Shown one piece after another: positions 6,696-41,649 of a stretch of 52,874 nt of DNA. The notes beneath the pieces were generated by a model, which had not been told where the DNA came from, made no database searches, and saw only the letters and a program-made list of their open reading frames with translations. This stretch comes from Clostridia bacterium (GTDB lineage: Bacteria > Bacillota > Clostridia > Christensenellales > Borkfalkiaceae). Where the stretch lies: assembly GCA_017886895.1 (NCBI GenBank), contig JAGHJD010000063.1, forward strand, positions 1 through 52,874, given 5' to 3'. How positions within the stretch are numbered: position 1 is the stretch's first letter; each line of letters opens with the position of its first letter. The position numbers and the translations under genes are program-made.

Positions 6696-8372
6696 TTATT
6701 CCCGCACGCTTAGTTCCGCATGCGCGTTCGGCTTTACTGCTGCGGTCGTGAAATCGGTGTACACCACAAACCCCGCCCGCGCCTTGGGCGGCTTTTTCAC
6801 AAAGCGGCGTTCGCACACGTCCACGGGTACCCGCTCTTCGCTTTGCGCATCCGAATAGTACGCGCAGATCTCGGCGGCGGTCTGCAAAACGGAGGCGGGC
6901 GCCTTGCGCCCGTCCGTGCGCACGATCACGTGCGCGCTGTGGTAGCGCTGTGCGTGCAGCCATACGTCGTGCGGCGCGCTCTCGCGCAGCAGGCGGTCGT
7001 TCTGCAAGTTGTTCCTGCCCGCGAAGATGCGGAATCCCTCCGTCTCATAGGCGCGGAAGGGGCTTTGCCTTGCGGGCGCGCTCTTTCTCTTCTGCGGCGC
7101 GGGGAGCACCCCCGCCGCGCGCAGTTCCTCCTCCGTCTCGGTGAAGTCCTCGTTCTCCTCCGCGCGCAGCACTTCGGAGAGCATGCTCAGCGTGTAGTCG
7201 CGCTCCTCCTCCGCCTCCGCGATCTGCGGCTGCACGGCGGCGAGCGTGCGCTTTTGCTTTGCGTACTTTTTGAAATATTTCTGCGCGTTCTGCGCGGGGG
7301 TGAGCTGCCTGTCCAGCGCGATCTTCACGGAAGGGGAGCCCTCCTCGTACCAGTTCGCGAGCGTGCAGCTCTCCGCGCCGCGGGGGATCGCGTAGAGGTT
7401 CGCGGTGAGCAGTTCGCCGTTCACGCGGTTTTTCTCCATGTCCGCACAGCTCTGCCTGCGCTCTTCGAGCAGGGCGAGCTTTTTCTCCTCCTTTTTCAGC
7501 CGCGCGTGCAGCGCGCTTTCGAGGCGGCGCTTTCTGTCTGCAAAGTCTCGCCTGTTCTCCCGTTCGGTGTAATAGCGGTCGGCGGCATCGATCACGCTCC
7601 CGCAGCGCTCCCCGCCCGCAAAGCGCGCATGGAAGTCGACGGGCTCGCCGTTCACCCGCTCCACGGCGGGCGCGGTCTCGTCGGAAAAGATGAGCGCGCG
7701 CAAGGCGTCCGCAAGCTCCTCCGCGGCGGCGTTCTGCGGGAGCAGCGGCGCGAGCAGCGCGCAGGTGGAATACGCCAGCCCCGCCACGTTCTGCGAGAGG
7801 AACCGCGCAAGGTCGCCGCCCGAAAAGGCGGAAAGCCTCTCTGCGAGCGCGGCGCGGTCGGAAGGGTCCGCCTTGTCCTGCGCGGCGGGCGGGGCGTATT
7901 TCACGCCCGGGAAGAGCACGCGTTTGAAATTTTCCTGCAAAGAGGAAACTTTGAGCGCGCCTAAAATGACCCCGTTTTCGGTGAGTACGAGGTTGGAGTA
8001 CTTTCCCATGATCTCGGCGTACAGCACGCGCTCGGCGCGCGCAAATTCGCCCGCGCAGTCAAAGGCGAAGGCGAGGATACGTTCAAAACCGAGCTGGTTC
8101 ACCGATAAAAGCTGCGCGCCCGTCAGGTGCTTGCGCAGCAGCATGCAGAAGTTCGGCGCGACGTCCGGCGCGGTGCGCGGCTGCTGCGAGAGCAGTGCGC
8201 GCGCAAAGGACGCGTGCGTGTTCAGAAGTAGTTTCTGCGTCTTTCCGCCCGCGTAGAGGATAAGGTCGACCTCGTCGCGCGAGGGCTGTATGATCTTGTT
8301 CACTTTGCCGCCCGAAAGTGCGGCGTCGAGTTCGCGTGCGATATGGCGCAGCGTGAATGCGTCCTGCGGCAT
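6696..8372 (-). CDS. rqcH: RqcH (Rqc2/NFACT family) ribosome quality control protein
   Basis: The 558-residue protein has the NFACT family layout. The NFACT-N domain (about 1-180) contains DAFTLRHIARELDAALSGGKVNKIIQP, LLLNTHAS and the CMLLRKHL motif, followed by FERI at the place of the tRNA-contacting Asp/Glu-Arg pair. A middle HhH and coiled-coil part (Glu/Arg/Lys-rich) follows, and then a C-terminal NFACT-R domain (about 430-540) with GFRIFAGRNNLQNDRLL and DVWLHAQ..HSAHVI. In the known family RqcH binds obstructed 50S subunits and recruits tRNA-Ala to add C-terminal alanine tails. Older annotation calls it fibronectin-binding protein. The start is set by GGAGAA 5 nt before ATG 8372. Confidence 0.93.
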   Translation of the reverse strand: MPQDAFTLRHIARELDAALSGGKVNKIIQPSRDEVDLILYAGGKTQKLLLNTHASFARALLSQQPRTAPDVAPNFCMLLRKHLTGAQLLSVNQLGFERILAFAFDCAGEFARAERVLYAEIMGKYSNLVLTENGVILGALKVSSLQENFKRVLFPGVKYAPPAAQDKADPSDRAALAERLSAFSGGDLARFLSQNVAGLAYSTCALLAPLLPQNAAAEELADALRALIFSDETAPAVERVNGEPVDFHARFAGGERCGSVIDAADRYYTERENRRDFADRKRRLESALHARLKKEEKKLALLEERRQSCADMEKNRVNGELLTANLYAIPRGAESCTLANWYEEGSPSVKIALDRQLTPAQNAQKYFKKYAKQKRTLAAVQPQIAEAEEERDYTLSMLSEVLRAEENEDFTETEEELRAAGVLPAPQKRKSAPARQSPFRAYETEGFRIFAGRNNLQNDRLLRESAPHDVWLHAQRYHSAHVIVRTDGRKAPASVLQTAAEICAYYSDAQSEERVPVDVCERRFVKKPPKARAGFVVYTDFTTAAVKPNAHAELSVRE

Positions 8373-9945: not shown

Positions 9946-10542
9946 ATGAAGGATATGCAGATGAACCTCATCCCCATGGTCGTGGAACAGTCCAGCCGCG
10001 GCGAACGCTCGTACGACATCTATTCGCGGCTTTTGGAGGACCGCATCATCTTCCTCTCGGGCGAGATCAACGACGCGATGGCGAACACCATCGTGGCGCA
10101 GCTCATCTACCTCGAGGCGAAGGACATGAACAAGGCCATCAGCCTGTACATCAACAGCCCGGGAGGGAGCGTCTCGGCGGGGCTGGCGATCTACGACACG
10201 ATGCAGTATATCCGCTGCGACGTGTGCACGATCTGCATCGGGCTTGCGGCGAGCATGGGCGCGTTCATCCTCTCCAGCGGCGCGAAGGGCAAGCGCTTTG
10301 CGCTCCCCAACAGCGAGATCATGATCCATCAGCCGCTCGGCGGCGCGCAGGGGCAGGCGAGCGACATCAAGATACAGGCGGAACACATTTTAAAGACCAA
10401 AGAAAAGATGACCCGCATCCTTGCGGAGAATACGGGCAGGAATTTTGAGGAGATCGAGCGCGACACCGACCGCGACAATTATCTCTCCGCGGAAGAGGCG
10501 CGCGCCTACGGGCTCATCGACAAGGTGTATTATAAGAGGTAA
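9946..10542 (+). CDS. clpP: ATP-dependent Clp protease proteolytic subunit
   Basis: A 198-residue serine protease with the complete triad: Ser103 in GLAASMGA, His128 in MIHQP and Asp177 in DTDRDNYLS. The YINSPGGSV oxyanion motif is at about 68-76. The protein forms the tetradecameric barrel that degrades substrates unfolded by ClpX and by ClpC (encoded at 44405). ATG 9946 is preferred because GGAG (9934-9937) lies 8 nt before it; a GTG at 9937 overlapping the tig stop is the alternative. It lies 5 nt after tig, so translation is probably coupled. Confidence 0.97.
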
Positions 10543-10631
10543 CGTTCCGCTCTGCGCCGTGAGGGCAGGGCGGGAGACCGCCGCTTTTACGGCTGCGCGC
10601 GCGGGAACGCGCGCGGAAGGAGGAATAAACC

Positions 10632-19033: not shown

Positions 19034-19832
19034 ATTTGAGAGACAACCGGCGGGCACGCCCGCTCCGCGGGCTAACCGCCGTTTTTCTCTCTGCGGCTCG
19101 GCAAAACAACGCCCGCATTGCTGCGGGTCGGCAAACGCCAACCCGCATGCGTTGCGGCATTGTTTTGCCTCTTTCCCAAAAATCTCGCAGTGCTTTCGCA
19201 CGCTGCGATTTTCGGGAACCCTGTGCAATGCTCTCCATTATAAGCGCGCCGCATTCACTCTTTTCGAATTGAGCCGCAAGTATGCGGCAAATTGAGTGCG
19301 CTTTCCGAAAAGCGTCGTTTTCGGACGCGCAGTTGAATTATTATATCCTTATTTAATAGAGATCCCTCGACAGGCTCGGGATGACAAAACAAGGCATTTA
19401 CATTTCAATAATTCTTCGCGCAAGCAAAACCACGCTTTTTCGTCGGAGCGGTCGGCTGCGCCCTCGTTTTGCCCCATGGGGCAAAACTCGCATGCGCACT
19501 CCGCTCCTCCTCTTCCCAAAAATCTCACTTTGTTGCGATTTTCGGGAACCCTTTTAGCGCACCCCAATTTGGCAACACTTTGCCTGTTGCAGGAAAGGTG
19601 AAGTTGCGGCATTTATAAATATGTGTGCTAAAACAGATGCCGCAACGAGGAAAACCTCCGCTGTCTCGAACGAAGTGAGAGCAGTGGGGTTGTCCTCAAA
19701 ATCGCAGGAATGCGGCGGCTGCGCCGCCGTCAACTTCGCCGATTTTGCATAAATGTCTGCAAACAGCCGCTTCGCAAAATCGGCTTCGTTAGCCGCAGGC
19801 AGCAGCCTGCCGAGAAATCCGCGAGCCTTTTT
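19034..19832. repeat. Hairpin-rich non-coding island, about 800 bp
   Basis: No credible gene is present. The stretch holds a chain of separate foldbacks: 19100-19169 (ends GGCAAAACAA / TTGTTTTGCC), 19175-19216 (CCC-AAAATC against GATTTT-CGGG), a perfect 22-bp palindrome at 19466-19487 centred on CCATGG, 19514-19547 (the same AAAATC/GATTTT type), 19603-19646 (GTTGCGGCAT / ATGCCGCAAC) and 19647-19697 (GAGGA...TCCTC). A lone end of the 6545 element is at 19360-19386. The base composition is more AT-rich than the genes. It probably consists of several decayed small mobile repeats. Confidence 0.7.
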
Positions 19833-28776: not shown

Positions 28777-29037
28777 ATGTCAGTATTATGTCTGCTCATC
28801 ATCGGCTGTGCCTGCTGCGGCAGTTCGTGCGCGTGCGCACGCGCCGCGCGGAGCTGCTGCAATTCGTGCAATTCCTGTAATAGCTGCAACGGTTGGAACA
28901 GTTCGGCGTTCAGTTCGTCGGGCTGCTGCAACTGCTACTGCGGCTGCACGGGGTTCGGCAGCCGTTCGGGGATCTGCTGCGATACCGCCTACTATAACAG
29001 GCAGTATGCGCTCTGCTCCTGCTGCTGCAACAACTGA
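28777..29037 (+). CDS. Small cysteine-rich protein (22 Cys in 86 residues)
   Basis: An 86-residue protein with 22 cysteines (26 percent), arranged as a short hydrophobic N-terminus MSVLCLLIIGC, a CNSCNSCNSCNGW repeat at 28-40, a CCNCYCGC cluster at 50-57 and a C-terminal CSCCC. It is rich in Asn, Ser and Gly. A strong RBS (AAGGGGAGAAGG) and an intrinsic terminator right after the stop argue that it is a real gene. I do not recognise the family. Possible roles are metal binding, a disulfide-rich surface or spore protein, or a modified peptide precursor. No maturation enzyme lies nearby. The N-terminus could also act as a membrane insertion segment. Confidence 0.7.
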   Translation: MSVLCLLIIGCACCGSSCACARAARSCCNSCNSCNSCNGWNSSAFSSSGCCNCYCGCTGFGSRSGICCDTAYYNRQYALCSCCCNN

Positions 29038-33776: not shown

Positions 33777-35174
33777 ATGGATATTTTGGATGACGCGCGG
33801 GTCGCGCGGCTAACGGAAAAGCAGCGCGCGTTTTTTTCGGCGGGGAACACGCTGCCGCTGCGGTTCAGGCAGGAACAGCTCGCAAAACTGAAAAGCGCGG
33901 TCCTCGCGCGGGAGGAGCGGTTTGCGGATGCGCTCGCAAAAGACCTCGGCAAATGCAGGGCGGAGAGCTATTTTTCGGAGATCGGGTTCGTGCTTGCGGG
34001 CATTTCGCATGCGCAGAAAAATCTCAGAAAGTGGATGCGTCCCGTCCGCGTCCGCGCTTCCGCGACCGTGTTTCCGGCAAAAAACCATATCGTGCGGCAG
34101 CCTTACGGCTGCGCCCTGCTCATCGCGCCTTTCAATTATCCCTTCCAGCTCGCGCTCGAGCCGCTCGCCGCGGCGCTGGCGGCGGGGAACTGTGCCGTGC
34201 TCAGCCTTTCGGAGCTGACGCCGCACACTTCGGCTGCGGTGCGGGAGATGCTCGGCGAGATCTTTCCGGAAGAATACGTGTTCTGTACGGAGGGCGGCGC
34301 GGAGAACAATGCCGCATTGCTGCGCGCGCGGTTCGATACGATCTTTTTTACGGGCAGCGCAAGAGTGGGCAGGATCGTGCAGCGCGCGGCGGCGGAACAC
34401 CTCACGCCCGTCACGCTCGAACTGGGCGGGAAGAGCCCCGTCATCGTGGACGAAACGGCAAAGCTGCGCGTCGCCTGCGAGCGCATCGCTTGGGGGAAAT
34501 TCCTCAACGCGGGGCAGACCTGCGTCGCGCCCGACTATGTATTCGTGCAGGAGCGCGTATTCGCGCAGTTTATCGAGGAAATGAAGGGCGCGATCCGCCG
34601 CTTCTACGGCGAAGACGCAAGGCTTTCCCCCGATTACGGAAGGATCGTGAACGGGCGGCACACCGAGAGGCTGTGCGCGCTCCTGCGGGAGGACGGCGCG
34701 TCCGTCGTGTACGGCGGCGAGACCGATAAGGCGGAGAGGTTCATCGCGCCGACGCTTCTGTGCCCGCCCGACCCCGACGGCGCGGCGTGCATGCGCGAAG
34801 AGATATTCGGGCCTCTGCTGCCCGTGTTTCCGTATGTGCGCATCGAAGAGGCGCTCGCGTTCATCAACGCGCGGGAAAAGCCGCTGGCGCTGTATGTGTT
34901 CAGCGAGGACAAAAGAGCGGCAGAGGAGATCCTGCGGCGCACCTCTTCGGGAGGCGCCTGCATAAACGATACGGTCAGCCATATCATCGACCCGCACCTG
35001 CCCTTCGGCGGGGTGGGGGAGTCCGGAACGGGAAGTTACCACGGCGAATACGGGTTTGCGAATTTTACGCATGCGCGCAGCGTGCTTGCGCGCTCAACGC
35101 GCGTCTGCCTGCGGGCGGCGTTCCCTCCCTTTACGGAAAAGAAGCTGCGTACCGTCCGGAGATTCATGAAGTAG
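33777..35174 (+). CDS. Aldehyde dehydrogenase, class 3 (fatty/aromatic aldehyde) type
   Basis: A 465-residue NAD(P)-dependent enzyme that oxidises aldehydes to acids. Catalytic Cys249 (NAGQTCVAPDY) and base Glu215 (TLELGGKSPV) are present, as are FTGSARVGRIV and the class 3 end LPFGGVGESGTGSYHGEYGFANFTHARSV. Oddly, the cofactor loop usually written KPSE reads SLSE (residues 143-146), so the conserved Lys that contacts the NAD(P) ribose is missing. RBS AGGAGGCGG. It lies 79 nt after the reductase with a weak hairpin-free gap, so it is probably in the same TetR-controlled operon. Confidence 0.9.
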   Translation: MDILDDARVARLTEKQRAFFSAGNTLPLRFRQEQLAKLKSAVLAREERFADALAKDLGKCRAESYFSEIGFVLAGISHAQKNLRKWMRPVRVRASATVFPAKNHIVRQPYGCALLIAPFNYPFQLALEPLAAALAAGNCAVLSLSELTPHTSAAVREMLGEIFPEEYVFCTEGGAENNAALLRARFDTIFFTGSARVGRIVQRAAAEHLTPVTLELGGKSPVIVDETAKLRVACERIAWGKFLNAGQTCVAPDYVFVQERVFAQFIEEMKGAIRRFYGEDARLSPDYGRIVNGRHTERLCALLREDGASVVYGGETDKAERFIAPTLLCPPDPDGAACMREEIFGPLLPVFPYVRIEEALAFINAREKPLALYVFSEDKRAAEEILRRTSSGGACINDTVSHIIDPHLPFGGVGESGTGSYHGEYGFANFTHARSVLARSTRVCLRAAFPPFTEKKLRTVRRFMK

Positions 35175-35191
35175 GGCGCTGCCCGCTGTGC

Positions 35192-35737
35192 ATGATCGAC
35201 ATGTTCGATACGATCGGCACGCTGTACGGCGCCTGCTCGAAGGGCAACCTGCTCGATAAGAACGGGACGCCCATCCGCATGGAGCGCATGATGCTCGCCG
35301 ATGCGATCGCGACCTGCACGGGCGCAATCGCAGGCACGTCCACGGTCACGACCTTCGTCGAATCCTCCTCGGGCATCGTCGCGGGCGGCAAAACGGGCTT
35401 TACGGCGCTCGTCACGGGGCTTTGCTTCATCGTCGCAATGTTTTTAAGCCCGATCGCGCAGCTCATCCCGCGCAGCGCGACGGCGACGGCGCTCATCTGG
35501 GTGGGCGTGCTGATGATGACCTCCGTCGTCAAGGTGGACTGGGAGGACGCAGCCGACGCGATCGTCGCGTTCATGACGCTCATCGTCATGGTGCTCGGCT
35601 ACTCCATTTCCAAGGGTATCGGCGCGGGCATCATCACTTATATCGTCGTTTCGATCTTCACGGGCAAGATCAAAAAGATCTCCGTTGCAACGTGGGTCAT
35701 CGGCGTCATCTTCCTGGCGACCTTTGTCCTGACATAA
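35192..35737 (+). pseudogene. Truncated NCS2 (AzgA-type) purine permease, C-terminal part only
   Basis: The residues from MIDMFDTIGTLYGACSKGNLLDKNG through ADAIATCTGAIAGTSTVTTFVESSSGIVAGGKTGFTALVTG are the second-half signature of AzgA/GHP-type hypoxanthine-guanine permeases. They continue through four more helices to a normal C-terminus. The first 250 or so residues of the usual 430 are absent. Homology begins about 17 nt after the aldehyde dehydrogenase stop, so the 5' half was removed at the edge of the upstream operon. A start at ATG 35192 has no RBS. It is probably non-functional. Confidence 0.85.
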
Positions 35738-35754
35738 ATCTGTAAACCGAAAAA

Positions 35755-35884
35755 GCCCCCCGTTCCGCACGCGGAACGGGGGCGTAGCGTATAAAGGCGG
35801 GCGGCGCAATTCTGCGCCGCCCGCTTTTGGTCGCGGCTCAATCGATATAAAAGACGCGCCGTTCCGCATGCGGAACGGCGCGTC
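35755..35884. terminator. Three tandem hairpins after the permease remnant
   Basis: Hairpins at 35755-35783 (CCCCGTTCCGC / GCGGAACGGGG), 35797-35824 (GCGGGCGGCGCA / TGCGCCGCCCGC plus TTTT) and 35853-35884 (GACGCGCCGTTCCGC / GCGGAACGGCGCGTC). The first and third share the CGTTCCGC...GCGGAACG core. They can terminate the permease transcript and the minus-strand SLOG gene. Confidence 0.75.
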
Positions 35885-35911
35885 GGTCGCTTTGACAGCC
35901 TACGGGCAGAT

Positions 35912-36424
35912 TTACAGAAAATCATTTAGGTACAGTATCTTTAATTTTTTTCTTGATTGCCTTGCAATACATATAGTTGCATACGTGCCGCCTTTCGGAA
36001 TGCCGTTCCATGCGGCAAGCACGACGTCTGCCTGTCCGACCATATAGCGGTTTCTCTCTTTCATGCAGGTATCGGAGTATGCGGGCGAAAGAAGTGTTTG
36101 CTTGTCTGCCTTTTTTAATATTTTTCTGTACAGAGCTTTGTCCCTTTTCTGCCATTTCCGATCCTGCTCGGGGCAGGGGACGGCAACTTCCAAACGAATA
36201 TCCGGGTGGCGTTTCCGCAGTTTCAGAACGGTCAGCGCAAAGTCGGTGTCGGCACCTATTGCTCCGCCTGAAATAAAGCGGGTACAACCGCCTTCGTACA
36301 GTGTGCCGACGACATCTTTTAAGGCGCGCAAATAGGCTCTGTGCGGTTTGCTCCGTTTGCGGGCATATTTCCATGGGAAACCGTTTTTTCGGTGCCCCGT
36401 AAAGCAGCAACAGCCTGTTCCCAA
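35912..36424 (-). CDS. SLOG-fold (YpsA/DUF1273-like) nucleotide-binding domain protein
   Basis: A 170-residue protein. It begins CCCFTGHRKNGFPW (the F-T-G-H-R start of the DUF1273/YpsA family), then FISGGAIGADTDFALTVLKL (51-70; the G-G-A-x-G-A-D Rossmann loop), LEVAVPCPEQDRKW, RNRYMVGQADVVLAAWNG and GGTYAT. These are the SLOG superfamily elements that bind nucleotides or nucleotide-derived ligands. YpsA itself affects cell division in Bacillus; other SLOG proteins are sensors in defence systems. The start is TTG at 36424 with GGAGGTG in front. Codons are clearly more AT-rich than in the neighbours. It is divergent from the XRE gene and shares a palindromic operator with it. Confidence 0.82.
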   Translation of the reverse strand: MGTGCCCFTGHRKNGFPWKYARKRSKPHRAYLRALKDVVGTLYEGGCTRFISGGAIGADTDFALTVLKLRKRHPDIRLEVAVPCPEQDRKWQKRDKALYRKILKKADKQTLLSPAYSDTCMKERNRYMVGQADVVLAAWNGIPKGGTYATICIARQSRKKLKILYLNDFL

Positions 36425-36444
36425 AATTCACCTCCGATTGTATC

Positions 36445-36545
36445 ATTATACGCGCAATGGAGCAGAAAAGCAAGAGAAGTTCTATATATAGAACTAATTT
36501 TTTTAAGGATGCGCATATAATAAGGGTAGTTCTTCACATAGGACC
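36445..36545. promoter_or_regulatory. Divergent promoter region with 18-bp palindromic operator
   Basis: Minus-strand promoter for the SLOG gene: TTGCTT (36473-36468), 17 bp, TATAAT (36450-36445). Plus-strand -10 TATAAT (36516-36521) for the XRE gene, without a clear -35. The perfect palindrome AGTTCTATATATAGAACT (36478-36495) lies between them. A degenerate second copy, AGTTC...GGACCT, sits at 36528-36545 just downstream of the plus-strand -10. One regulator could control both genes. Confidence 0.8.
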
Positions 36546-36562
36546 TTTCGGGGGGCGTCAAA

Positions 36563-36796
36563 ATGCGGTTGGCGGATGCCGTGGTACACAGGCTAAGAGC
36601 CATAATGGAAGAGCGCGGGCTGAAACCCTATTACTTCCATAAAAACGGCGGGATTGCGAAATCGACGATTTCGCAATTGCTGAACGGAAAACAGCAGAAA
36701 GTAACGCTTGATTTGCTTTTTCAGTTTACTTCCACGCTCAACATATCGCTGAAAGATTTTTTTGACGACCCGATATTCGGAGAAATAACGGATTGA
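36563..36796 (+). CDS. XRE/Cro-CI-family HTH regulator
   Basis: A 77-residue single-domain DNA-binding protein. The HTH reads MRLADAVVHRLRAIMEERGLKPYYFHKNGGIAKSTISQLLNGKQQKVTLDLLFQFTSTLNISLKDFF, with helix 3 around AKSTISQLLNG as recognition helix. It is the obvious candidate to bind the palindromes at 36478 and 36528. Base composition is AT-rich like its divergent partner, which suggests joint acquisition. There is no clear SD; GGGGGGCGTCAAA precedes the ATG. Such stand-alone HTH proteins are common in plasmid, prophage and defence modules. Confidence 0.88.
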   Translation: MRLADAVVHRLRAIMEERGLKPYYFHKNGGIAKSTISQLLNGKQQKVTLDLLFQFTSTLNISLKDFFDDPIFGEITD

Positions 36797-36884
36797 AAAC
36801 GCTTTGGCGGGCTGCCGAGGCGTTTTTCGTTTCATGCGTAATATTCCGCAGAAAACGGCGCACAATAGGGGAAGGAGGTAGTTT

Positions 36885-37124
36885 ATGTTCATAGCCAATC
36901 TTGTTTCGTATATCCTCGTGCTGCTGGGCGCGGTGAATTGGGGGCTGTACGGCATCTTCAATTTCAACCTCGTGTCCGCCGTCTTTATGGGGGACCGCAC
37001 GGTCGGCGCGGTCATCGTCTATGTGCTCATCGCGCTGGCTGCGATCTGGCTGATCCTTTCGACCATCTTTTCGGGCGGCATCCTGCGGTTCCGCGCGGCG
37101 CACGAAGAGCGGGCAAAGGCATAA
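36885..37124 (+). CDS. DUF378 small membrane protein
   Basis: A 79-residue protein with two helices: 6-26 (YILVLLGAVNWGLYGIFNFNLVSAVF is the DUF378 signature, with the conserved G-A-x-N-W-G-L) and 41-62. It has a short basic tail. The function of the family is unknown. RBS AAGGAGG lies 7 nt before ATG. GC content returns to the window's normal level here, so the AT-rich insert ends between 36796 and 36885. Confidence 0.88.
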   Translation: MFIANLVSYILVLLGAVNWGLYGIFNFNLVSAVFMGDRTVGAVIVYVLIALAAIWLILSTIFSGGILRFRAAHEERAKA

Positions 37125-37142
37125 AACTTTACAGGATACGTG

Positions 37143-37172
37143 AAAGGGGAGCGGGTACTGCCGCTCCCTTTT
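37143..37172 (+). terminator. Rho-independent terminator
   Basis: GGGAGCGG / CCGCTCCC stem with a 6-nt loop, A-run before and TTTT after. Confidence 0.8.
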
Positions 37173-37531
37173 CCTGTCCGTAAGGGTCTCGCGCGCGTGC
37201 GGGAAAGCGGTGCTGCGGGCGGGGGGAGCGTGTCCCGCCGCCCGCAGCACTGCGCCCGGGTTTTTATGCCGTTCGCCGCTTTGCGCTCCCTGCGGAGGGT
37301 CTGCCCCTGCGGCGTGATTGTTCCCTCGGCGGGGCGTTTCGGCGGGCGGGAGCACGTGAAAAAATTTTCATAAATTTTAACGGTTTCTTTACCGTGCAGA
37401 TATTGACAAACGGGTATGTTTTGCATATAATAGAAGTGTAATTAGTTATCAATAGCAACTATTTTCACTATTGTCATAAAGTTTCGTGACAAGGTGAGAA
37501 AAAGCATTATTCTCGTGACAGGAGGCGGGGT
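37173..37531 (+). promoter_or_regulatory. Promoter and operator region of the ABC transporter operon
   Basis: A strong promoter is present: TTGACA (37403-37408), 17 bp, TATAAT (37426-37431). Downstream of the start site lie inverted repeats: CAATAG...CTATTG (37450-37473), a 22-bp imperfect palindrome from TTGTCA (37471) to TGACAA (37492), and GAGAA...TTCTC (37497-37515). CGTGACA occurs twice. They are candidate sites for the MarR or DtxR-type regulator encoded at the end of this operon. The first 190 bp of the gap are GC-rich and hold nothing I recognise; TTTTAACG/CTTTACCG repeats lie at 37370-37393. Confidence 0.7.
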
Positions 37532-38233
37532 ATGAGCTTTGTCGAATTTAAAGACGTGTGCAAGTTTTATACGATGGGCGAGAATGTCATCAAGGCGGCG
37601 GATCATGTGAATTTCACCATCGAAGAGGGCGAGTTCTGCGTCATCGTGGGACCCTCCGGCGCGGGAAAGACGACCGTCCTGAATATGCTCGGCGGCATGG
37701 ATAAAGTGACGGAAGGGCAGATCCTTGTGGACGGCGCGGCGGTGAACACCTTCAACGAGCGGCAGCTCACCGACTACCGCCGCTACGACGTGGGGTTCGT
37801 GTTCCAGTTCTACAACCTTATCCAGAATCTCACGGCGCTTGAAAACGTGGAGATCGCCTCGGAGATCTGCAAAGACCCGCTGGACGCTGCGGAGACGCTG
37901 CGGAAAGTGGGGCTTTCGGAGCGCATGAAGAATTTTCCCGCGCAGCTCTCGGGCGGCGAGCAGCAGCGCGTCTCCATCGCGCGCGCCATCGCGAAGAACC
38001 CGAAGCTTCTGCTGTGCGACGAGCCGACGGGCGCGCTCGACTACGAGACGGGCAAGGCGATCTTAAAACTTCTGCACGACGTATGCCGTAACGATAAAAA
38101 GACGGTCATCGTCATCACGCACAATACGGCGCTCACGCAGATGGCGGACAGGGTCATCCACATCAAGAACGGGCAGGTCTCTGCGATGGAGATCAACGAA
38201 AACCCCGCCGACGTCTCCGTCATCGAATGGTAA
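37532..38233 (+). CDS. ABC transporter ATP-binding protein, MacB/LolD type
   Basis: A 233-residue ATPase. Walker [10 protein letters not shown] (about 42-50), Q-loop [18 protein letters not shown], signature [19 protein letters not shown], Walker [13 protein letters not shown], switch His in VIVITHN. It belongs to the MacB/FtsE-like group that powers FtsX-type permeases. The permease gene follows after 36 nt. RBS GGAGGCGGGG. Members of this group work in antimicrobial peptide or lipid extrusion and signalling rather than classical import. Confidence 0.95.
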
Positions 38234-38269
38234 AAGAGAGCAAGACGGTTTTTGCGGGAGGTATGCGCC

Positions 38270-40822
38270 ATGAATAAGTACGGAAAGACCATCCTCAAAG
38301 AGTTCAAATCGGGCTTCGGGCGGTTCATCGCCATCATGGCGATCATCGCGCTCGGGGTCGGGTTCCTCATCGGCATCATGCAGGCTACGCCGGACATGGA
38401 GAACTCCATGGACGACTATTACCGTGCCGAAAACGCCTACGACGTGGATATAAAGGGCACCCTCGGGCTGACGGCAGAGGACGTCGAAGCGATCAGCGAA
38501 AGCAGCGTCGTCGAAAGCATTGCGCCCGTCATCTCCACCGACGTTACGGCGCAGGCGGGCGAAGCGGAGGTCGTCGCGCGGGTCGTCTGCATAGACAGGG
38601 CGTATGAGGGCGCGGCGGAGCTGAACAAACTCACCCTCGAGGAGGGCAGCATGCCCGCCGAGGGGCTGACGGACGCGGACGGGAACGAGATCCCGCTCGC
38701 AAAGCAGGTCGTCGTCGAACGCGCAACGCGCAATTTCACGCAGCTCTCCGTCGGCGACACGGTCACGCTCGACGCGGCGAGCGGGCAGTACGGCGACGTC
38801 TATGCGCAGACGGAGTTCACCGTCGTCGGCATCGTCTCTTCGCCCGATTATTATTACCTGGACGCGACCGAACAGACCACTTTGGGCGCGGGCGTCGTCG
38901 GGTGCGTGGTGTACGTGAACGACGGGGTGTACGACCTTTCGGGCGGGCAGTTCGCCGCGCTCGGTATGCTCGGCAGAACGACCGCTTATACCGACGTCTG
39001 GGTGAAGATCGCGGGCGCAGGGGCGTACGACTACCTTACGGATGAGTACAAGAGCTATGTGCTCGGGCAGGCGGAGACGCTCTCTTCCCTCGGCGAGGAG
39101 CGCTGCGCCGATCTCAACGATACGATCGGCGCATTCGGGTACAGCGCAAGCTGGCTCATGCTCGACCGCGCGAGCACGAACGTGAGCTACGTCAGCTTTG
39201 ACATGAACGTGGAGAAGGTCGCGGACATCGCGGGCATCTTCCCCATCTTCTTCATCGTCGTCGCGGCGCTGGTCGCCTTCACCTCCATGACGCGCATGGT
39301 CGAAGAGGACAGGATGCAGATCGGCACCCTCAAAGCGCTCGGGTACAGCCCCGCGCGCATCGTGTCGAAGTATCTCATCTATTGCAGCATCGCCTGCATC
39401 ATCGGGTGCGCGGCGGGTATCCTGATCGGCTTTTCGCTGCTGCCCTCCATCTTCTGGGCGGCGTATCAGACGCTGTACGCGCTGCCCGCGCTCAACCTCG
39501 CGTTCAGCCCGTGGTTCGCGGTCGCGGTCATCGGCATCGCGCTGGCGGCGACCATTCTCGTCACGCTCGCGGCATGCTGGTCCTCCCTGCGCGAACGCCC
39601 GTCCAACCTCATGCAGCCCAAGGCGCCGAAGGCGGGCAAGCGGGTGCTTCTGGAGCGCGTCCCGTTCGTCTGGAAGCCGCTTAAATTCAAGTGGAAGGCG
39701 ACTATCCGCAATATCTTCCGCTATAAAAAGAACATGATCCTCACGATCATCTCCGTCATGGGCTGTACGGCGCTCATCCTCGTCGGGTTCGGGCTGAACG
39801 ATTCGGTCAACGCCGCGAGCACCTACCAGTACGAGAACGTCATCCTGTACGAATCGGCGATCACGTATGAGGGCGAATGGGAAGAGGGCGGCGCGCTCGC
39901 ACAGTTTCTGAACGAATCGGACGGCTACACCTCCGTCTATGCCGACGAGAGCGCGACGCTCGTCATCCCGCAGGAGAGCGGGAACGCGACGGAGCCGGTC
40001 ACGCTCTGGCTCGTGGAGAACGACGAAACATTCAATGAATTTATTTCCTTGCATGAACGCGGCGACTCTGCTATAATAGAACTTGCGGACGACAGGGAGG
40101 GCTGGCTCGTGCTCTCGGAGAACATCGCCGTCGTCTACGGCATCGAGGCGGGTGGCGCGGTGATGCTGAACGGGCACATGGTCGGTGTGCGCGCCGTCTG
40201 CGAAGGATATACCGGCTCCAACGTGTACATGAGCAAAGGGGCGTACGAGAGCCTGTTCAACGGCGGGGCTGCGCTTGCGGCGAATACGCTGCTCGTCAAA
40301 TCGGACGTCGGGCGGGAGAACACGGAGGAGGCGACGCGCGCCCTTCTCGAAGACGGCGCGGTGGATTCCGTGGAGTTCATCTACTCTTCGCTCTCCATGT
40401 TTGAGAACCTGAGCGAGATGATGGGGTACGTCATCGCCGTGCTGGTCATCAGCGCGGGCGCGCTCGCGGCGATCGTGCTGTACAACCTGACGAACATCAA
40501 CATAGACGAGCGGCGGCGGGAGATCGCGACGCTGCGCGTGCTCGGCTACCGCAAGGCGGAGGTCGCGGGCTATATCTACCGCGAGAGCGCGATCCTTACG
40601 GTCGTGGGCACGCTGCTGGGTCTGCTGCTCGGCTGGCTGCTGCATCTGTATATCGTCACAAACGTGAACAGCATCTCGATGATGTTCGGCAGGATCATCG
40701 GCGGGCTGAGCTATCTGTGGGCGTTCCTGTTCACCATTGCCTTTGCCGTGATCGTCTATGCGTTCATGCTCATCAAACTCAATAAGATCAGCATGACCGA
40801 TTCGCTCAAATCCAACGAGTGA
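38270..40822 (+). CDS. FtsX-like ABC permease with large extracellular domains
   Basis: The 850-residue permease starts with a TM helix (GRFIAIMAIIALGVGFLIGIMQATP, about 14-38). A large extracellular domain (about 40-300) precedes the first FtsX core, IFPIFFIVVAALVAFTSMTRMVEEDRMQIGTLKALGYSPARIVSKY. The second half repeats the plan: KNMILTIISVMGCTALILVGFGL, another outside domain, and MGYVIAVLVISAGALAAIVLYNLTNINIDERRREIATLRVLGYRK. So it is a fused two-core permease, as in bacitracin/peptide-type and MacB-like systems. ATG 38270 is chosen because GGGAGGT stands 7 nt upstream. Confidence 0.92.
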   Translation: MNKYGKTILKEFKSGFGRFIAIMAIIALGVGFLIGIMQATPDMENSMDDYYRAENAYDVDIKGTLGLTAEDVEAISESSVVESIAPVISTDVTAQAGEAEVVARVVCIDRAYEGAAELNKLTLEEGSMPAEGLTDADGNEIPLAKQVVVERATRNFTQLSVGDTVTLDAASGQYGDVYAQTEFTVVGIVSSPDYYYLDATEQTTLGAGVVGCVVYVNDGVYDLSGGQFAALGMLGRTTAYTDVWVKIAGAGAYDYLTDEYKSYVLGQAETLSSLGEERCADLNDTIGAFGYSASWLMLDRASTNVSYVSFDMNVEKVADIAGIFPIFFIVVAALVAFTSMTRMVEEDRMQIGTLKALGYSPARIVSKYLIYCSIACIIGCAAGILIGFSLLPSIFWAAYQTLYALPALNLAFSPWFAVAVIGIALAATILVTLAACWSSLRERPSNLMQPKAPKAGKRVLLERVPFVWKPLKFKWKATIRNIFRYKKNMILTIISVMGCTALILVGFGLNDSVNAASTYQYENVILYESAITYEGEWEEGGALAQFLNESDGYTSVYADESATLVIPQESGNATEPVTLWLVENDETFNEFISLHERGDSAIIELADDREGWLVLSENIAVVYGIEAGGAVMLNGHMVGVRAVCEGYTGSNVYMSKGAYESLFNGGAALAANTLLVKSDVGRENTEEATRALLEDGAVDSVEFIYSSLSMFENLSEMMGYVIAVLVISAGALAAIVLYNLTNINIDERRREIATLRVLGYRKAEVAGYIYRESAILTVVGTLLGLLLGWLLHLYIVTNVNSISMMFGRIIGGLSYLWAFLFTIAFAVIVYAFMLIKLNKISMTDSLKSNE

Positions 40823-40836
40823 AAGGAGCGGAACAG

Positions 40837-41268
40837 ATGGAGAAGAAGGAACTGCGCGATGCGCTCATGCAGCAGCTTTGGCGCATGAACAAGATGGATC
40901 TGATGGTGAGCCTGCGCGAATTTCTGGAGGGCGAGAGCGCCGCGCTGCATTACCTGCATACTTGCAGAGAGGAGCGCGTGTCGCCTTCGCAGCTCAGCGA
41001 AAACATAGGCGTGAGCCGCGCGCGGACGGCGAATATCCTGCGCTCGCTGCGCACGAAGGGGTATATCGCCATGGAGATCTCGGAGAGCGACCGCCGCAGG
41101 ATGGAGGTGCGCATCACGCCCGCGGGCGAGGCGTTCTGCCGCGAAAAATACGAATTTCTCGTGCGGTACTTCGACCTGTATGTGGACGTGCTCGGCGAAG
41201 AGGACATCGCGGAGCTGACGCGGCTGATCAAAAAGACGGCGGACAACGAAGTGCTGCTGAAAAAATGA
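40837..41268 (+). CDS. MarR-family transcriptional regulator
   Basis: A 143-residue winged-helix protein: SPSQLSENIGVSRARTANILRSLRTKGYIAMEISESDRRRMEVRITPAGEAF shows the MarR HTH, the beta wing (SESDRRRMEVRIT) and the start of the dimerisation helix. It lies 14 nt after the permease with RBS AAAGGAG, in the same operon. It probably represses the operon through one of the palindromes at 37450-37515. The ligand is unknown. Confidence 0.88.
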   Translation: MEKKELRDALMQQLWRMNKMDLMVSLREFLEGESAALHYLHTCREERVSPSQLSENIGVSRARTANILRSLRTKGYIAMEISESDRRRMEVRITPAGEAFCREKYEFLVRYFDLYVDVLGEEDIAELTRLIKKTADNEVLLKK

Positions 41269-41286
41269 TCGTACGGAGGAGAGAGC

Positions 41287-41649
41287 ATGATCGAAAACGA
41301 ATCGGGCGAAGATTATCTCGAAACGGTGCTGCGCCTGCTTTCCACGGGCAACGACGTGCATGCCGTGGACGTCGCGCGGCAGCTCGGCGTCTCCAAACCC
41401 GCGGTCACGAAGGCGATGCGCATCCTGACGCAGAAGGGGTATGTCGAGATCGTCGACAACCATATCCACCTCACCCCGGCAGGGGAGGAATACGCCGTCG
41501 CCGTGTACGGAAAACACCGCATGCTGACCGAGTTTCTGATGAAACTCGGTGTGGGCGCGGAGACGGCGGAGGCGGACGCCTGCCGCATGGAGCATCTTTT
41601 GAGCGAAGAGACGCTCGGCGCGATCCGCGCGTTCAATAAAGGGAACTGA
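41287..41649 (+). CDS. DtxR/MntR-family metal-dependent regulator, short form
   Basis: A 120-residue regulator. The HTH reads ESGEDYLETVLRLLSTGNDVHAVDVARQLGVSKPAVTKAMRILTQKGYVEI. The dimerisation and metal domain follows: YGKHRMLTEFLMKLGVGAETAEADACRMEHLLSEETLGAI, with His, Glu, Cys and Glu-x-x-His ligands typical of the family (the C-R-M-E-H segment). There is no SH3 domain, as in MntR. It senses Mn2+ or Fe2+. It is unusual to see it behind a MarR gene in an FtsX-type operon; it lies 18 nt after marR. Confidence 0.9.
   Translation: MIENESGEDYLETVLRLLSTGNDVHAVDVARQLGVSKPAVTKAMRILTQKGYVEIVDNHIHLTPAGEEYAVAVYGKHRMLTEFLMKLGVGAETAEADACRMEHLLSEETLGAIRAFNKGN

Follow-up and report, generated by a model that had tools for sequence, protein, structure and literature searches.

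A divergent pair of a YpsA-type SLOG gene and a small XRE-type repressor gene recurs in Clostridia with conserved putative operator sites

YpsA-type SLOG proteins are common, include one whose crystal structure dates from 2006 and are given no established ligand in the literature covered. In Bacillus subtilis, excess YpsA inhibits cell division and colony formation (PMC7376506), and in the parts covered of PMC6459960 and PMC7376506 overproduction is described as toxic and the GxD/E motif as required for the formation of foci and for division inhibition, with E55D reported in the latter as an inactivating suppressor. Small DNA-binding regulators with a dedicated partner are described in two further settings. 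The RES-Xre modules join an Xre-type protein to an NAD-related partner (as cited in the portion of PMC7824862 covered), and the controllers CapH+CapP, CapK+CapS and CapW are repressor-based and movable, with a second protein in two of the three kinds (according to the portion of PMC13373217 covered).

The window analysed here is the whole stretch of 52,874 bases, which makes up the entire contig C14 of a 1.63-Mb draft host genome (87 contigs, 81% complete). As the original prediction described, it carries a SLOG gene and a gene for a 77-residue helix-turn-helix regulator that are transcribed away from each other, across an intergenic gap of 138 bp. Both assignments were borne out by Pfam, where the SLOG protein scored 61.7 bits against the YpsA family PF06908 (curated cut-off 27.7) and the regulator, called XRE hereafter, scored 32.9 bits against HTH_26 (cut-off 22) and 30.1 bits against HTH_3 (cut-off 23). 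The features of the locus are:

35192..35737, plus strand: 3' remnant of a xanthine/uracil-type permease gene, matching positions 242-387 of the 389 of PF00860 only
35912..36424, minus strand: SLOG gene of the YpsA type, 170 aa, TTG start (Pfam PF06908, AlphaFold model)
36430..36435, minus strand: ribosome-binding site of the SLOG gene, GGAGGT, read from the sequence
36445..36450, minus strand: SLOG promoter -10, TATAAT, present in 5/5 loci with a 17-bp spacer to the -35-like hexamer
36468..36473, minus strand: SLOG promoter -35, TTGCTT; O1 starts 1-5 bp upstream of it in 5/5 loci
36478..36495, no strand: putative operator O1, an 18-bp perfect palindrome AGTTCTATATATAGAACT, conserved as GTTCTAnnnnTAGAAC in G002, G044, G037 and IMG/VR L143
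36516..36521, plus strand: -10-like element of the XRE promoter, TATAAT, between O1 and O2, in the same place in 5/5 loci (TATACT in L143)
36528..36545, no strand: putative operator O2 AGTTCTTCACATAGGACC, 50 bp from O1, between the XRE -10 and the XRE start codon
36563..36796, plus strand: XRE-type repressor gene, 77 aa, HTH_26 / HTH_3 (Pfam), with orthologues 77-81% identical in G002, G044, G037 and G024
36885..37124, plus strand: DUF378 gene (Pfam PF04070), the syntenic anchor right of the cassette; congeners without the pair at this site have it close to the same ABC genes

To the right of the cassette lie the DUF378 gene and then an ABC transporter, and to the left the last third of the permease gene. 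The permease had been called broken, and it is: the congener G033 has the ORF at full length, and the window fragment is 93% identical to the 3' part of it. The pair is also more AT-rich than its neighbours, as claimed: the SLOG gene has a GC content of 0.493 (GC3 0.52) and the XRE gene of 0.453 (GC3 0.55) vs 0.578-0.647 for the 14 other genes measured (GC3 0.79-0.87, with the FtsX gene left out of GC3), and the 500-base segments of lowest GC on the contig are those of the pair. Between the permease remnant and the SLOG gene there are two strong hairpins (35757-35782 and 35853-35884) with the common core GTTCCGCAyGCGGAAC, the second being a 32-bp perfect palindrome; a hairpin resembling them stands after the permease of G033, and they are possibly a genus-wide terminator or repeat. 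Elsewhere in the window, an ORF at 28777-29037 encodes an 86-residue cysteine-rich protein with CNS repeats, and a similar ORF is present in G033.

The AlphaFold model of the SLOG protein (mean pLDDT 96) has the Rossmannoid SLOG fold, and its best match in the PDB by Foldseek is YpsA (2nx2, TM 0.88), followed by ShosA (8zva, TM 0.64). In an alignment of 11 sequences including that of the window, residues T9, G10, R12, G53, G57, D59, R124, N125, Y127, M128, G145, G146 and T147 are invariant. The GxD/E ligand motif is present as G57-x-D59, which is invariant in 11/11 sequences and aligns with G53/E55 of YpsA. The elements TGxR, GxxxGxD, RNxYM and GGT of the YpsA-type site are thus all kept, and on these residues the ligand would most likely be of the adenine-nucleotide type. 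As the window protein has D at the position where B. subtilis YpsA has E, and E55D inactivates YpsA, the function of the two proteins need not be identical. The closest solved relative of the XRE profile is protein 11 of prophage Lp1 (PDB 3b7h, 78 aa, E 7e-16).

The 18-bp perfect palindrome predicted between the two genes was confirmed as O1 and is conserved in four other loci. The weaker second copy that had been predicted along with it is likewise present as O2, which repeats the O1 arms and departs from the 18-base pattern at two positions; it is more than a weaker chance copy, being a conserved putative operator. Both sites occur in 5/5 loci (the window, G002, G044, G037 and IMG/VR L143) at a spacing of 50-53 bp. 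A perfect palindrome of at least 18 bp arose in 13 of 20,000 first-order Markov copies of the intergenic region, and the whole window holds four such palindromes besides O1; it is the retention of O1 and O2 in four other loci that makes chance untenable as an explanation. The XRE promoter has no recognisable -35, the expected position of which is the edge of O1. A further palindrome, perfect over 22 bp (GTTTTGCCCCATGGGGCAAAAC), was seen at 19466-19487, in or near another low-GC stretch of the window.

The exact O1 arms GTTCTANNNNTAGAAC occur once in the 1.63-Mb host genome, though the missing part of the draft may hold a further exact site. Allowing up to two mismatches, operator-like sites in the host genome numbered 47 vs 51 for the reversed pattern, which is no excess. 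With a single exact operator in the genome there is no evident other regulon, so SLOG itself is likely the sole output of the regulator. One exception to the arrangement was found in G024, where the XRE orthologue (77%) is accompanied by a similar SLOG with a second XRE gene standing between them; no site like O1 or O2 was found across its 4.7-kb contig.

Related genomes were searched for both genes. Among 101 relatives, each of the close XRE orthologues (77-81% identity, in G002, G044, G037 and G024) has a SLOG gene of 47-50% identity nearby and divergent from it. A divergent XRE of the window family stands at 10 of the 30 SLOG loci fetched from these relatives, and these were distributed unevenly, with 9 at the 17 loci most similar to the window SLOG and 1 at the 13 least similar, so the pairing is a frequent property of this kind of SLOG and not of SLOG genes generally. 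Profile searches of 396 genomes of the order gave a divergent A2-type XRE at 22 of the best 30 SLOG loci and a divergent SLOG at 21 of the best 30 XRE loci, the XRE matches being weak at the paired loci L123 (E 3e-5), L125 (E 2e-3) and L132 (E 3e-7); no partner was detected at the remaining 8 and 9 of these loci, respectively. Regions picked only by their XRE match (n=43, that is 60 fetched minus 17 already-known pairs) contained a SLOG in 21 cases. Across 56 distinct pairs the gap between the genes had a median of 150 bp (range 103-520). Across the phylum, SLOG matches at E 1e-25 were obtained in only 4 of 169 genomes, the host counted. The two genes are conserved together well beyond the window, and a self-regulated two-gene SLOG/XRE module, as originally predicted, is supported by the many neighbouring pairs and the conserved sites, self-regulation being the probable reading of the latter. 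In L071 (G024, 1324-2199), L070 (G037, 9961-10610) and L164 (G431, 7565-8080) a single SLOG has two or three tandem XRE genes of the window family beside it, an arrangement that looks as if repressors accumulate.

The partners of the pair are exchanged between loci, the extreme cases being an XRE similarity of 0.85 with a SLOG similarity of 0.23, and a SLOG similarity of 0.87 with an XRE similarity of 0.30. We used this exchange as a natural experiment by taking the best shared intergenic 18-mer between loci (56 loci; the counts are locus pairs and not independent points). Where the XREs were alike (at least 0.65) and the SLOGs unlike (below 0.35), the 18-mers shared a mean of 15.24 identities (n=17), compared with 13.38 where the SLOGs were alike (at least 0.55) and the XREs unlike (below 0.4; n=21) and 13.21 in the background where both proteins were unlike (n=826). 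The partial correlation of the intergenic matches was 0.37 with XRE and 0.20 with SLOG, both exceeding all 2,000 permutations; as that with SLOG is also above chance, the separation of the two is incomplete. The operators follow XRE more than SLOG, and this correspondence makes XRE very probably the protein that reads the palindromic sites. By eye, several kinds of site could be told apart: TATGTAGGTATACCTACATA-like sites in L028, L178, L179, L199 and L201, ATACGG...CCGTAT-like sites in L191, L192, L198 and L203, and GTTTATnnnnATAAAC-like sites in L074, L177 and relatives, with no palindrome found by the scan of the intergenic regions of a few loci such as L121 and L032. The distances of XRE and SLOG were weakly correlated (Mantel r 0.14, p 0.008), a result that speaks against a close co-evolution of the two proteins.

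The SLOG gene is not a fixed chromosomal ypsA orthologue. A SLOG match of some kind is present in 39 of 40 genomes of the genus, whereas SLOGs like that of the window (47% or more) were found, besides the host, only in G002, G024, G034 and G037. The NCBI equivalog PRK13660 was not reached (40.9 bits against a threshold of 165), and this score together with the patchy distribution in the genus speaks against the fixed orthologue that the original prediction had named as a refuting outcome. The second SLOG of the host (on C71), of the type common in the genus, has no such XRE within 19.9 kb. In G002, G024 and G037 the pair lies on a different contig from the match to the ABC genes of the window, none of the 13 congeneric DUF378 regions contains a SLOG, and a lone, different XRE gene is present in the region of G033 alone. 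In G033 the intact permease is followed by another gene in place of the pair. As congeners are without the pair at this site and the permease of G033 is intact, the cassette most likely arrived in the host lineage, beside a permease gene that is now truncated. No integrase or transposase family was recognised among the nine window proteins scanned (33777-41649).

On balance the cassette is probably an autorepressed, mobile two-gene SLOG effector switch. The comparison of loci gives its layout, the conservation of its sites, the geometry of its promoters, the correspondence of XRE and site and the single exact site in the host genome; from these we infer repression by binding, relief by an inducing event and a SLOG protein that is both the only output and the effector. 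The XRE protein of 77 aa would bind, presumably as a dimer, to O1 and O2 on either side of its own promoter's -10, and O1 in addition adjoins the -35 of the divergent SLOG promoter. Sitting over both promoters, it would keep both genes low until a trigger relieves the repression and the SLOG protein appears as the output. SLOG would then be a conditional effector, the excess of which may be harmful as an excess of YpsA is in B. subtilis. From O1, close to the SLOG -35 on its upstream side, XRE might instead activate the gene; the lambda repressor activates at PRM. The cassette may work like a toxin-antitoxin or controller cassette, and we assign it to neither class.

A strict toxin-antitoxin module, in which SLOG would poison growth or NAD metabolism and XRE would neutralise it by binding and repression as in RES-Xre, is an unlikely form of the pair. 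The inhibition of division and colony formation by overproduced YpsA (in the covered part of PMC7376506), the degradation of NAD+ by RES-Xre modules (cited in the covered part of PMC7824862) and the matches of the XRE profile to the antitoxins HipB and HigA in the PDB are consistent with it, whereas the genes are divergent and form no operon, the exchange of partners argues against a specific protein complex and an XRE of 77 aa leaves little room beyond the HTH.

The original prediction had seen in the pair a candidate defence or stress switch. As an anti-phage controller, SLOG would sense an infection signal (a nucleotide or single-stranded DNA), lift the repression by XRE and thereby switch on a neighbouring immune operon in the manner of CapW/BrxR, CapH+CapP and CapK+CapS, and controllers that sense single-stranded DNA next to immune operons are known (from the covered part of PMC13373217). 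The pair does occur in such places. In G096 and G068 the gene immediately downstream of SLOG is cas9, and in G296 (L159, 1687-7907) XRE and SLOG stand directly before an MzaB-MzaC-MzaD operon with a gap of 144 bp between SLOG and MzaB. Besides, G198 has the candidate defence ATPase PDC-S01 next door, G367 an operon with a NERD+UvrD-like gene and G275 an island with PADLOC matches. An earlier scan of 128 neighbours, made without a control set, was apparently rich in Cas1, methyltransferase and Mza models. However, the pair is found at cas9 in only 1 (G096) of the 17 among 396 genomes that have a RuvC_III-type cas9 (that of G068 is outside the 17 and matches other Cas9 models) and at 1 of the 6 of 396 genomes with MzaC, the weak MzaC locus L299 of G096 being outside that scan. 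In the genus of G096, to which G067 also belongs, the order XRE-SLOG-cas9 of G096 has a counterpart in L309 (G067:C1, 3634-7816) with a lone divergent XRE of the window family 548 bp from cas9, apparently through gain or loss of the SLOG gene at this position.

When controls were added, the defence role was not supported. Of 72 distinct pairs, counting that of the window, 34 have a gene after SLOG on its own strand, 32 a convergent one and 6 none, so SLOG is without a standing operon partner, and the 32 convergent cases speak against a controller of the next operon. The next genes judged (n=65) comprised 28 on the same strand within 1 kb (25 scanned by PADLOC, two cas9 and MzaB, with one spurious ORF of the window left out) and 37 others, and the controls were 67 genes from these loci at a distance of over 4 kb, scanned by PADLOC. 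Defence-type genes numbered 4/65 next door (cas9 twice, MzaB and PDC-S01), and the controls matched MzaE, Csn2, DolB, PDC-M37B and mad3 models in 5 or 6/67, or 4/67 without mad3, two of these matches belonging to the same Mza and CRISPR islands as the pairs. There was thus no significant excess of defence genes next to the pair (4/65 vs 4/67, Fisher p 1.0). If all PADLOC matches at E 1e-20 are taken in, DnaG-like/RT_UG29 (one or two proteins, one of them by eye a housekeeping primase), mad3 and RTasDUF1848 join the list, giving 7 or 8/65 next door, and the comparison stays flat (about 7/65 vs 5/67, p 0.56). Restricted to same-strand genes it leans towards defence, with 4/28 vs 4/67 (p 0.23), or 4/28 vs 2/65 when same-island controls are dropped (p 0.065). 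At the window itself no immune or phage gene besides the pair was suggested by Pfam among the nine proteins at 33777-41649. An anti-phage controller is hence quite unlikely as a general account of the pair.

Divergent pairs also occur on several phage contigs. They were found on predicted viral contigs of IMG/VR at L143, L144, L334, L335 and L340; L144, whose XRE matches weakly, has an integrase-type recombinase gene nearby. Among 13 viral SLOG matches a divergent A2-type XRE was present at two (L143 and L144), and of the 8 loci obtained in a scan of viral contigs for XRE, 4 had SLOG divergent from it (L334, L335, L340 and the contig of L143). The annotated complete phages NatCom_991 and NatCom_9287 carry SLOG with a divergent XRE of another type, and in Vescimonas fastidiosa a third type of XRE accompanies a SLOG near ArdA. 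At 2530-2868 of NatCom_9287 (L325), where the minus strand encodes the XRE, the record lists a hypothetical protein on the other strand. On a Parabacteroides distasonis plasmid (L326, 156-1338) a SLOG relative stands directly behind a phosphoribosyltransferase gene, an order which we take to be that of the gene pair of a ShosTA-like module, and matches of this kind are frequent on Bacteroidales plasmids. That SLOG is a counter-signal gene of phages or other elements, degrading or soaking up NAD-derived immune signals under a lysogeny-type XRE repressor, with the chromosomal copies as remnants of prophages or other elements, would fit these viral copies and the prediction that phage YpsA-like SLOGs act on ADPr signals (in the covered part of PMC9503650), but is distinctly improbable, as 11 of the 13 viral SLOG matches are without the A2-type divergent XRE and many chromosomal pairs lie by housekeeping-like genes, with no phage genes recognised by eye in the stretches viewed.

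The self-repressed switch, our preferred reading of the locus, may belong to something larger. Speculatively, and with considerable doubt, XRE-SLOG might form an undescribed, widespread class of exchangeable sensor-effector cassettes shared by Clostridia and their phages. Sets of repressor and operator would be recombined with SLOG modules on a fixed divergent chassis, chromosomes, mobile elements and phages would turn the cassettes on each other by way of NAD- or nucleotide-type signals, and now and then a copy would serve as a switch before cas9 or Mza operons. There are many such cassettes in this order of gut Clostridia, and phages carry them too, which gives them relevance beyond one genome. 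A small conserved repressor dedicated to the SLOG gene offers a handle on this protein family, since the event that derepresses it would name the trigger and the SLOG freed from control would name the activity. The exchange of partners on a fixed divergent layout, with operators tracking the repressor, is also an instructive case of modular evolution.

Compared with the known systems, the window SLOG resembles YpsA in fold, Pfam family and GxD/E motif, and differs from it in being only 18% identical in the Foldseek alignment, in falling short of PRK13660, in facing its own repressor and in its patchy distribution in the genus. ShosA of ShosTA is the second-best match in fold and a weak PADLOC match (E 0.0026), but no phosphoribosyltransferase was found beside the window SLOG among the neighbours scanned, and its 170 aa compare with 303 in the model. 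Thoeris was rejected, as neither a TIR gene nor a SIR2-SLOG protein was found among the scanned window neighbours and in the SLOG architecture. The XRE protein is close in size and profile to the Lp1 prophage protein, and the pair shares with RES-Xre the coupling of an Xre-type protein to a partner, which in those modules is of the RES family, whereas the window pair is divergent and its partners are exchangeable. The Cap controllers are similar in logic, and CapS has two binding sites (in the covered part of PMC13373217) like the putative O1 and O2; unlike them, the cassette has a SLOG and not a protease, kinase or WYL domain, and pairs of the window type are usually without a recognised immune gene next door, none being adjacent at the window. 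No description of an XRE-SLOG pair was found in the literature searched, and the SLOG survey of Burroughs et al. 2015, which lies outside it, may mention one. The protein families of the cassette are thus known and controller cassettes of similar logic have been described (in the covered part of PMC13373217), and the pairing of XRE with SLOG is apparently new.
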